Positions 26,126-28,941 of a stretch of DNA of 64,000 bases are shown piece by piece; the stretch's first letter is position 1, and the number at the start of each line of letters is the position of its first letter. A model generated the notes under the pieces. It saw only the letters and a list, made by a program, of their open reading frames with translations, searched no databases and was not told the DNA's origin. The stretch is from assembly GCF_000172155.1 (NCBI RefSeq), contig NZ_ABIZ01000001.1, positions 2,046,001 to 2,110,000 on the forward strand. The letters are read 5' to 3'. The stretch is from Verrucomicrobium spinosum DSM 4136 = JCM 18804. Lineage in GTDB: Bacteria > Verrucomicrobiota > Verrucomicrobiia > Verrucomicrobiales > Verrucomicrobiaceae. The translations under genes and the position numbers were made by a program.

Positions 26126-28861
26126 TTACTGCATGGTGCCCTCGCCAAAGACCTCCTCGCCGACCATCGCGCGCAGGTGGGCATGCTCCGGGTGGAGGAG
26201 TTCGGGGTCTCCCTTGAGGGTGCGCTCAGCCAGACGGCGAGCCGTTGTGACCAGGCGGGTGTCGGCGAGCAGCGAGCCGAAGCGCAACGGGGACTGGCCG
26301 CTCTGGGCGCTGCCGAGCACATCCCCCGGGCCTCGTCTGGCCAGGTCTTCTTCTGCAATCTTGAAGCCATCCGTGGTTTCCTCAAGCAGCTTGAGCCGCG
26401 CCATGGCCTCTTTGTCCCCTTTGGGAACGAAGAGAATGGCATATGACGTGTGTGCGCCACGACCAATGCGACCGCGAAGCTGGTGCAGCTGGGCCAGACC
26501 AAACCGGCCGGAGTCGTGGATGATCATGACCGTGGCATTGGGGACATCCACGCCCACCTCGATGACCGTGGTGCTGACCAGCACCTTGACGCTGCCTTCC
26601 CGGAACTGCCGCATCACCGCCTCCTTGGCCTCGGTGTCCATGCGGCCATGCAGCAGGCCAGTGGCATGCGGGGCCAGTCGTTTGGTCCACTCTTCCAGCC
26701 CGGTGGTCGCGGCCCCGGCATCGAGTTTTTCTGACTCTTCGATCAAGGGATAGACAATGTAGCACTGCCGTCCTTCTTCGAGACGGGTCAGAACAAATTT
26801 CGTGACCTCTTCCACCTTGGTGACTTCCCGCACGGCGGTGATGATTTTGCCGCGCTCTTTGGGCCGTTGGTCGATGGTCGAGACATCCAGGTCTCCGTAG
26901 AGGGTAAGCGTCAGGGTTCGAGGAATGGGAGTCGCGGTCATCACCAGCACGTCCGGTGCCTCCCCCTGGGCGATGAGGCGGGCCCGTTGGGCCACGCCAA
27001 ACTTGTGCTGCTCATCGATGACCACGAGGCCCAGGCGGGGCAGGTTGCCCGCGCTGCGCTCATAGAGCAGCGCATGGGTGCCGATGACGATGTCGGGTCC
27101 GCGATCGGCTGCAGGGATCTGGGGAGCGCACGCTTCCAGCGTGCTGCATTCCGCATCCTGCGGAATGTCGTCCGGTGTCCACAGCCACGGGTAGGGTTCG
27201 TTATCTGCCACCGCGCCCGAGCGAGTGGGGTTGGTGACGATGTAGGTGAATTTTTCCTGGAGGTCGGATTCGGAGCGGATGAGGCGGTCGTAGGATTCCT
27301 TTTCCCAAACTGGATCGGTCGATTTTTCCAGCTTGTTGATCTCGTTTGCCGTGAAGGACTTGATGGAGTGAGTGATTCCGCCCAGTGAGTGGAAGGTGGC
27401 GTTTCCTTCATCATCCCAAGACTCTGGAAGCGGTTCGAGCAGGGCATGCACGTGATCAGGCATGACGACGACCGCGAAGAGATTGTATCGGATTCTGTTG
27501 AAGTATCGAAAGGCGCTCGCGACGCAATCGCGCGCCTGTGGAGACAGCTGGCGATGGTCACGGGTACTCCATGTGAGCATGTACTTGCCCCAGGGACGTT
27601 CGATATGGGGCATGCGACGCTTGTGGTAAATGGGTTCGCTTGTCCCGCTGGCGTGTGTAGTCGGCAGGATGCCGACTACGGCACGCTGGAAGCGTGCGCT
27701 CCCCAATACGTCGGCTTTTGACGTTTCAGGCTGGGAATCCAGCACCTTGTCCGCTGTGCGCAGCGCCACGCGGATGCCGAGGGGCTCCAGCCAGCGGCGG
27801 GCGTTTTCATAGTGCTGCTCCGCGAGGATCTGGGTGGGGGCCATGAGTGCCCCCTGCCGACCGGCCTCCACGGCCATGAGCATGGCGGCCAGGGCGACCA
27901 CAGTCTTGCCGCTGCCCACATCGCCATGCAGGAGCCGGTTCATGGGCTGGGGCAGGGCCATGTCTGCCAGGATTTCCTCAAGCGAGCGGCTCTGGGCTCC
28001 CGTCATCTGGAACGGCAGAGTTTCCAGGAACGCGGTCAGCAGCCGTCCTTCTGCCCGCTGGGCGGTGCCACCATGATGCTTGAACTGCAACTTCCTCCGC
28101 ACGGCCCGGAGCTGCATGAGGTAAAACTCCTCCAGCGCCAGATAGCGCTGGGACTTGGTGAGTTCATCGAACCCCTCCGGGTGGTGCAGGGTGCGCAGGG
28201 CGGTGGCGCGGGTCATCCCGGCGAAGTCTCCACCCGCCTTGGGCCGGGGGAGGATGTCCGGCAGGGCGACGGCGGGGAGATGCTCCATCACCTGCCAGGT
28301 GGTGCGGCGCAGGGGCTTCTGCTTCAGTCCGCCGCGCAGGCGGTACACGGGAACGATGCGGGAGGCGTGGATGCCGGCCTCGTCATCGTCATCATCGCCA
28401 CGGAGGATCTCATACTCCGGGTGGTCCATGAGGAGTCGGTCCTTTATTTCCTTGATCTTGCCGTACACCATGAGCTCCATGTCCACCGCCAGGACCTTTT
28501 GCAGGTACACCATGCCGAACCACCGCAACGTGAGCTGCTGGTGCAGGGGATTGGACTCTGCCGCCTCCACCACCGTTTCAAATACGCCGCCGCGCTGGCC
28601 AAAACGCAACACACGCGTCTTTAGCACCCTCACATGGTGGCACACGGGCGTCTCGCTGGGGCCGAACCCTTTGAAGTCCATGCGCCGCCGGTCTTCGTGG
28701 CGGGCCGGGAAATGCAGGACCAGGCTTCCCACGGTGGTGAGTCCCTCCTTGGCGAGCATGCGCACGGCTGCGGGACGCAGTCCCTCCACCTGATCAAGCG
28801 GGGTCTCGATGCTGATGACGCTGGCGGCGGAACTCATTGGGGGACTGGAGGGTGTTGTCAT
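26126..28861 (-). CDS. recG: RecG ATP-dependent DNA helicase carrying an in-frame RAYT insertion
   Basis: 911 residues, against about 690-700 for normal RecG. The helicase parts are intact: Walker A HGDVGSGKT (about residue 312-320), APTQILAEQHYE, motif II DEQH in LVVIDEQHKFG (about 615), TATPIPRTLTLTLYGDLD, STTVIEVGVDVPNATVMIIHD and QLRGRIGRG. RecG reverses stalled replication forks and branch-migrates Holliday junctions. Between GIRVALRTADKV and PDIVIGTHALLYE about 195 residues are foreign (about 387-580): a REP-associated tyrosine transposase and two REP sequences read through without a stop. Removing them leaves about 717 residues. Start 28861 (MTTPSSPP) is preferred, and the frame is open to 28936. 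Confidence 0.93.
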   Translation of the reverse strand: MTTPSSPPMSSAASVISIETPLDQVEGLRPAAVRMLAKEGLTTVGSLVLHFPARHEDRRRMDFKGFGPSETPVCHHVRVLKTRVLRFGQRGGVFETVVEAAESNPLHQQLTLRWFGMVYLQKVLAVDMELMVYGKIKEIKDRLLMDHPEYEILRGDDDDDEAGIHASRIVPVYRLRGGLKQKPLRRTTWQVMEHLPAVALPDILPRPKAGGDFAGMTRATALRTLHHPEGFDELTKSQRYLALEEFYLMQLRAVRRKLQFKHHGGTAQRAEGRLLTAFLETLPFQMTGAQSRSLEEILADMALPQPMNRLLHGDVGSGKTVVALAAMLMAVEAGRQGALMAPTQILAEQHYENARRWLEPLGIRVALRTADKVLDSQPETSKADVLGSARFQRAVVGILPTTHASGTSEPIYHKRRMPHIERPWGKYMLTWSTRDHRQLSPQARDCVASAFRYFNRIRYNLFAVVVMPDHVHALLEPLPESWDDEGNATFHSLGGITHSIKSFTANEINKLEKSTDPVWEKESYDRLIRSESDLQEKFTYIVTNPTRSGAVADNEPYPWLWTPDDIPQDAECSTLEACAPQIPAADRGPDIVIGTHALLYERSAGNLPRLGLVVIDEQHKFGVAQRARLIAQGEAPDVLVMTATPIPRTLTLTLYGDLDVSTIDQRPKERGKIITAVREVTKVEEVTKFVLTRLEEGRQCYIVYPLIEESEKLDAGAATTGLEEWTKRLAPHATGLLHGRMDTEAKEAVMRQFREGSVKVLVSTTVIEVGVDVPNATVMIIHDSGRFGLAQLHQLRGRIGRGAHTSYAILFVPKGDKEAMARLKLLEETTDGFKIAEEDLARRGPGDVLGSAQSGQSPLRFGSLLADTRLVTTARRLAERTLKGDPELLHPEHAHLRAMVGEEVFGEGTMQ
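27121..27167 (+). repeat. REP sequence, copy 1, at the lower-coordinate end of the RAYT unit
   Basis: Two adjacent hairpins preceded by GGAG (27123-27126), the tetranucleotide typical of REPs: GCACGC-TTCCA-GCGTGC at 27128-27144 and CATTCCGCA-TCC-TGCGGAATG at 27147-27167. In the recG frame it codes for ECSTLEACAPQ on the minus strand. Confidence 0.85.
27658..27704 (-). repeat. REP sequence, copy 2, at the upper-coordinate end of the RAYT unit
   Basis: Mirror image of the first copy: GCACGC-hairpin at 27681-27697 and, on this strand, TAGTCGGCA-TCC-TGCCGACTA at 27658-27678. The first hairpin is identical to copy 1. The second differs at three stem positions, and each change is compensated on the opposite arm. 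In recG it codes for GSARFQRAVVGILPTT. Confidence 0.85.
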
Positions 28862-28941
28862 GGCTCTGGCCGGGCGGGAATGCAAGCAGCGGACCGGGCA
28901 TCCTGCATTGACACCGGAACGCCTGCCTGCTCCCATGAGGC

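Follow-up and report, generated by a model that had tools for sequence, protein, structure and literature searches.

The 64,000-nucleotide stretch of the Verrucomicrobium spinosum DSM 4136 genome analysed here (contig NZ_ABIZ01000001.1, positions 2,046,001 to 2,110,000; hereafter the window) carries on its minus strand a recG gene in which a REP-associated tyrosine transposase (RAYT; REP, repetitive extragenic palindrome) and its two hairpin ends are nested in frame (Table 1). The original prediction for this DNA had described a recG open over 911 codons, with intact helicase motifs, holding at 27121-27704 a RAYT with HUH motif, catalytic tyrosine and both flanking REPs but no stop of its own. 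The frame is indeed open, but its length depends on the start, with 936 residues from the first ATG and 911 codons from an internal ATG at residue 26. The product is identified as RecG by the NCBIfam model NF008168, which matches in two stretches with 743.2 bits (cut-off 718); the other RecG models listed for this protein each score under their own cut-off. Pfam matches cover the wedge, DEAD, Helicase_C and domain-3 families. As predicted, the helicase motifs, which we take to be Walker A (GDVGSGKT), motif Ia and so on, are all intact in the translation of the interrupted protein.

Table 1. Features of the interrupted recG gene (positions in the window)
Feature	Positions	Strand	Remarks
recG open frame	26126..28936	minus	936 aa from first ATG; in-frame RAYT unit inside
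RecG N-terminal part	27722..28936	minus	wedge, Walker A GDVGSGKT, motif Ia; profile matches and motifs read in the translation
Linker holding the left-end peptide	27605..27736	minus	residues 401-444, pLDDT below 50
Left (5') end	27658..27706	minus	GGGGAGC tag, 7-bp hairpin (TCC loop), 2 nt, 9-bp hairpin; encodes LGSARFQRAVVGILP...
RAYT domain	27185..27607	minus	residues 444-584, NF047646
HUH motif	27446..27454	minus	HVH, within PDHVH; both H invariant in 19/19 aligned nested copies
Catalytic tyrosine	27242..27244	minus	YIVTNP; Y136 of alignment A1; invariant in 19/19
Right (3') end	27120..27170	minus	inverted double hairpin closing with GCTCCCC; encodes ...DAECSTLEACAPQ
RecG C-terminal part	26129..27103	minus	DEQHKFG, TATPIPRT and QLRGRIGRG motifs, domain 3; profile matches and motifs read in the translation

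Profile, motifs and open frame agree on an in-frame RAYT without a stop of its own. The model NF047646 (REP_Tyr_transpos) matches the insert with an E-value of 1.8e-22 and 79.8 bits, narrowly under its curated cut-off of 80, and a copy of the same subfamily nested in a methionine synthase gene (L187) reaches 80.5 bits. The predicted limits of the element coincide with two inverted arms of 45 nt (27120-27164 and 27661-27705) that are 89% complementary. Each arm folds into two hairpins with a z-score of about -5, and none of 200 shuffles was equally good in any of three folds. A known RNA element as the identity of the insert finds no support in Rfam, which gives no match up to an E-value of 1.

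In the V. spinosum genome, searched as one contig of 8,220,857 bases, no further RecG came up; the next-best matches are two pieces of a single frame of 1155 aa that looks Mfd-like by eye. A second intact recG, which the original prediction had named as one of two findings that would overturn it, thus did not turn up; the other, an assembly error, is unlikely because many further genomes show this unit, likewise in frame, in the corresponding loop of RecG. Alignment with related RecG proteins, a check that the prediction had proposed, places the insertion of other carriers in this helicase-domain loop too. Among the 80 best-scoring RecG loci of a genome-contig collection (kept by score, so that no rate can be drawn from them), seven (L009-L015) carry a RAYT in frame in this loop, all from metagenome-assembled genomes (MAGs) labelled Spartobacteria, Chthoniobacterales or Verrucomicrobia. 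A sample of 386 genomes of the order gave a RecG match (E ≤ 1e-60) in 352 and the insert in at least 13, V. spinosum included, all belonging to one family (f1). For the class sample (384 genomes), the insert was found in 14 of the 30 genomes with a match at E ≤ 1e-130. RecG loops free of RAYT range widely in length, from 37 to 101 aa.

RecG is only one home of this RAYT subfamily, since it is nested in the same way in the genes of alanyl-tRNA synthetase (alaS, AlaRS), threonyl-tRNA synthetase (thrS, ThrRS) and methionine synthase (metH, MetH). The search for other genes with the same unit, also suggested in the original prediction, covered Verrucomicrobiota. With the RAYT alone as query against ten genomes of the V. 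spinosum family and ten of the class (families f14, f45, f42 and f23), the seven best own-family and twelve best class matches all fell in frames of 827-1513 aa. The other 67 rows scored at most 72 bits; frames of 129-300 aa account for 54 of them and longer frames, some with a nested RAYT as well, for 13. The statement that RAYTs are usually stand-alone genes therefore holds for most other RAYT matches of these genomes and fails for this subfamily. Of the 384 class genomes, 36 match a profile built from 19 nested copies (alignment A1) at E ≤ 1e-38. The 44 matches all lie in stop-free frames of 698-1513 aa, one match, at the end of a contig, being partial; stand-alone genes number 0/44. The hosts of these copies are recG (14), alaS (21, in 20 genomes), thrS (5) and metH (4). 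NCBIfam named the last three, and alignment and motifs identified the recG hosts, that of the window being named by NCBIfam as well. In the same way, the eight matches of at least 199 bits in a phylum sample of 387 genomes all lie in frames of 730-1316 aa, and the next score is 116. For L212, L258 and L265, at contig ends, the frame includes one side of the host only. One alaS (L262) and one metH (L255) each hold two RAYTs. Another alaS (L188, genome G675) shows, near position 530 of TIGR00344, what appears to be an additional in-frame insert made of REP only (GRVGVPPAGLGILPERSSE...) besides its RAYT.

AlaRS and ThrRS are essential enzymes. For 18 of the 20 genomes with an interrupted alaS (all but G621 and G650), every TIGR00344 match at E ≤ 1e-20 is a piece of that one gene, which in G446 is divided between two contigs at the element; the interrupted thrS is single in 5/5 genomes, bar one fragment of 112 positions in G638. 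The alaS of V. spinosum itself is uninterrupted. As the genes are essential and apparently in sole copy, the interrupted proteins have to be functional, directly or after maturation, and the lack of a second copy suggests that the chimeric enzymes presumably work. The host codons upstream of the insert have a ratio of nonsynonymous to synonymous divergence (dN/dS) of 0.06-0.31 in 11 pairs.

The transposase and its ends are also conserved. The HxH motif and the tyrosine of YxxNP are present in 37/37 distinct nested copies. Among 31 within-clade recG pairs, the RAYT dN/dS could be computed in 14 and amounts to 0.02-0.12, with dS above 1 in 13 of these 14 and thus saturated or high nearly throughout; the clearest pair, L095/L097, combines a dS of 0.51 with a dN/dS of 0.02. 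Many nested pairs (e.g., L092/L096, L095/L097, L239/L247) show a higher synonymous divergence in the RAYT than in the host gene. The stems of the outer hairpins covary, 170 of 196 cells from 28 distinct hairpins being Watson-Crick pairs compared with at most 134 in any of 1000 shuffles that ignore relatedness. A double hairpin at the left end passes the script threshold in 43 of 59 nested copies, and 56/59 have an inverted repeat between their flanks (E ≤ 0.05). Across the subfamily, the end tag is mostly GGG[GT]AG[CG] and the stems measure about 7 bp and about 9 bp. In 57/59 copies, the 15 codons preceding the LPH motif contain no in-frame ATG (GTG and TTG were not counted). The 5' reading phase agrees in 30 of the 33 copies that could be placed (4 of 37 were unplaced), with anchor patterns that differ slightly in length.

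An AlphaFold2 (AF2) model of the interrupted RecG (mean pLDDT 76.5, pTM 0.63) has both RecG parts mostly above 70 pLDDT and a folded insert core at about residues 445-590, set between low-confidence stretches (401-444 and 590-610). The hairpin-encoded peptides therefore look like tethers in this model. Its best Foldseek match in the PDB is RecG (1gm5, E 8.7e-38). The profile of the nested family, run against PDB sequences, has a sole match at E ≤ 0.001, the TnpArep structure 4er8 (E 2.5e-6).

Comparison of relatives points to gain, loss and replacement of the unit. In two close sisters, RecG is free of the RAYT: G021, whose RecG pieces are 94 and 96% identical, and G136, with 90 and 94%. The loop of G021 retains the exact 3' end of the element, in frame, and that of G136 a decayed piece of this 3' end. 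A pristine empty site is therefore less likely than a loss of the unit, or than an insertion next to a REP that was already there. A third genome of the same genus, G179, has a 5'-type end in its RecG loop. Relic ends, for which the tag and no fewer than 6 of the 7 stem pairs were required, occur in 5/95 RecG loops without RAYT compared with 5/905 control windows.

The nested subfamily forms one clade relative to hand-picked stand-alone RAYTs (support 100/100 with four such rows and 100/99 with three). On the tree of 59 nested and three stand-alone rows, seven host/site labels need 14 changes, for a minimum of 6 and a shuffled mean of 30, so that the copies are clustered by host, yet with more than one origin for each. 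Approximately unbiased (AU) tests reject a single clade for the 28 recG rows (p 0.0006), for the six alaS rows (p 1.5e-5) and for 11 f14-like recG rows (p 0.0009), a group defined after inspection of the tree. One recG insertion followed by vertical descent alone is thus discarded. A quick tree of 124 RecG rows, made with the loop removed and including 29 RAYT rows (one of which, L230, duplicates the gene of the window), needs 21 changes of presence, 17 of them forced by its starred branches, for a shuffled mean of 26.3. For genus g3 of family f1, one old insertion and several losses are the simplest reading. Furthermore, near neighbours in RecG can carry RAYTs of different clades: L009 and L123 differ by a dN of 0.43 in the RAYT and 0.06 in the host, L010 and L120 by 0.41 and 0.09. 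The metH pair L187/L257 has a dN of 0.17 in the RAYT and 0.08 in the host. These comparisons fit gain, replacement and in-frame loss of the unit.

The compared sequences themselves show that the units are nested in frame, in hosts for which no second copy turned up, that catalytic residues and ends are conserved under purifying selection, and that there is turnover with more than one origin per site. From these we infer translation as one chain, transposase activity and its mode of insertion, as well as a host that keeps working with its insert and any benefit to it. With a probability of roughly 0.7, we favour a mobile RAYT element that would be translated with sole-copy proteins, persist as a domain tethered in their loops and be repeatedly gained, replaced and lost in frame. 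The host frame would supply translation to an element that lacks its own stop and, mostly, its own start. The ribosome would read through the double-hairpin ends, which could thus serve twice, as the DNA substrate of the transposase and as the coding sequence of flexible linkers around the HUH/Y1 core. The unit would be made together with the host protein and its core would fold on tethers, the host enzyme remaining functional while it expresses and shields the transposase. Since the unit would be made as a tethered domain of its host, its expression would be assured and its deletion hard without harm to the host. Selection on the transposase would maintain it; occasional in-frame deletions would remove it, leaving one end behind, and a new or different copy could arrive later, often where the earlier one had been. 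Whether this amounts to an autonomous class of elements living solely inside sole-copy housekeeping proteins, with a HUH transposase homing into loops of AlaRS, ThrRS, MetH and RecG, we regard as an even bet; splicing would then be dispensable because the hairpin ends double as flexible peptide linkers.

Several observations weigh against the tethered mobile element, beginning with the saturated dS already mentioned. The 3' reading phase divides 20/8/5, so that a frame-neutral cassette with a length always a multiple of three is unsupported at this end, and the in-frame exit seems to be reached case by case. Near-exact search for the outer hairpin of the recG element (at most one mismatch) found few ends in the V. 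spinosum genome, four copies of which two are the recG ends themselves. The lack of stand-alone genes among the strong matches concerns the 9-10 best candidates scored per genome. No viral carrier was confirmed in IMG/VR. The genomes of the copy check are mostly drafts, 85-100% complete, that could hide a second copy. Same-site replacement could also come from recombination of the host gene instead of fresh insertion. Lastly, RAYT and host diverge alike in some pairs (dN 0.11 and 0.15 for L262/L245, 0.18 and 0.19 for L264/L243, 0.27 and 0.27 for L125/L132), as expected if the unit has long been inherited vertically, and without any hint of recent transfer. The host values of the first two pairs come from the codons upstream of the insert and remove the case for a recent transfer between distant alaS hosts. 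They supersede host values of 0.50 for L262/L245, where the L262 stretch ran into its second RAYT, and of 0.46 for L264/L243; the L265/L248 comparison was discarded because it set different host regions side by side.

The original prediction had offered two readings of its own, a single polypeptide joining both activities or a tolerated passenger. A domesticated RecG-RAYT enzyme, kept for fork remodelling and for cleavage of REP-like hairpins, would agree with a RAYT dN/dS as low as that of RecG in order of magnitude and with nine rows of one family-f1 clade that look vertically kept. It is nevertheless improbable: the subfamily is equally nested in AlaRS, ThrRS and MetH, presence changes 21 times on the RecG tree and sisters as near as G021 and G136 live without the RAYT. 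The second reading, old loop insertions that are now functionless and immobile, would account for the variable length of RAYT-less loops, for the relic ends and for the pairs with similar divergence of RAYT and host. Catalytic residues intact in all distinct copies, the low dN/dS and the compensated stems (relatedness being ignored in the shuffles) make such decay very unlikely.

Removal of the RAYT from the product, by splicing or cleavage as for inteins or by a ribosome that skips at the hairpins, is suggested by a host range like that of inteins, by hosts without a second copy and by the strong hairpins at both junctions. We consider it unlikely, given that no intein or Hint family is among the listed matches of the window protein (Pfam; best 25 of 41 for NCBIfam), that Rfam is silent on the element and that a ribosomal bypass would not require the continuity of frame seen on both sides. 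An artefact of assembly or annotation could be suspected from the many carriers that are drafts or MAGs and from the alaS split at the element in G446. With V. spinosum assembled in one contig of 8.22 Mb, an alaS insert in the equally single contig of G590 and a pattern that recurs across many genomes, this explanation is ruled out for practical purposes.

RAYTs that match the profile more weakly, outside the subfamily studied here, are also found nested in frame (L189, L192, L197, L205, L216, L217, L225, L226), with ValRS, LeuRS, ClpB, IspG, CarB (twice, at about the same place) and the C-terminal part of MetH (twice) as hosts. The V. spinosum genome (G000:6166171-6166467, L006:769-2364) and two sisters (L157, L156) have a RAYT followed in one open frame by a protein that looks Nudix-like by eye, NCBIfam naming the RAYT alone in L006. 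Elsewhere, a RAYT shares a frame with a DrmD-like SNF2 helicase (L215:439-3348) or with a BREX PglX-like methyltransferase (L222:1-3306), both matches lying under the cut-offs of these models. Nesting is less clear for a RAYT behind the matched TsaC domain of a TsaC frame (L196:1165-2913), for one in a frame with adenosine deaminase (L223:610-2391) and for one upstream of RecF in the same frame (L200:85-3291).

RAYTs are regarded as stand-alone, domesticated genes. The top results of our searches in the open-access literature include no paper on in-frame nesting of a RAYT, subscription papers lying mostly outside the search, and an intein-like lifestyle of a transposase inside four housekeeping genes seems new. 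A survey of the wider family (PMC6006769) reports that it dropped from each subclass a few unexpectedly long proteins, taken to be fused or wrongly annotated genes, which would be the very class of proteins found here. If true, the tethered mobile element would show that a transposase can persist through its translation with a sole-copy gene and its difficult removal from it, an intein-like niche reached by a transposase. It also makes testable the movement of a HUH transposase from within a protein, the activity of the host enzyme and the choice of loops, and the nested units show where tRNA synthetases and helicases tolerate insertions.

By its HUH motif and tyrosine, its match to NF047646 (narrowly under the cut-off) and to 4er8, and its inverted hairpin ends, the element resembles REPtrons and their RAYTs (TnpA-REP), Y1 HUH transposases of the IS200/IS605 type. 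It differs from them by the lack of a stop and mostly of a start of its own, by its nesting in 44/44 strong class matches, by two hairpins per end and by a near-exact search that showed no large REP population in the V. spinosum genome. REPs inside genes, many of which serve replication and repair, such as uvrA in O. terrae, also a verrucomicrobial species, and the Rickettsia palindromic elements (RPEs) are treated in the portion of Di Nocera 2013 (PMC3733652) considered here. These palindromes too are translated in frame in repair, replication and tRNA synthetase genes, but they are described there as dimers or groups of 20-30 aa and larger clusters of 43-82 aa, free of transposase, whereas here a whole transposase is nested with its ends. 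The sections of the same paper on intragenic REPs and on TIRYT describe no RAYT inside a gene. TIRYT, as presented in these sections (PMC3733652), is a RAYT-like gene with terminal inverted repeats, like the present element, some of them with GGGGWSAS; in the present element, the ends form hairpins and their motif is in most cases GGGGAGC or GGGTAGS.

The present elements share with inteins their in-frame position in conserved sole-copy genes, their gain and loss and, in L262 and L255, a pair of copies within a single host protein. Inteins with homing endonucleases lie in frame in conserved, often sole-copy proteins, with a patchy distribution and recurrent sites. Unlike in inteins, no splicing domain is among the listed matches of the window protein, the insert presumably stays in the protein and the enzyme that it carries is a HUH transposase.

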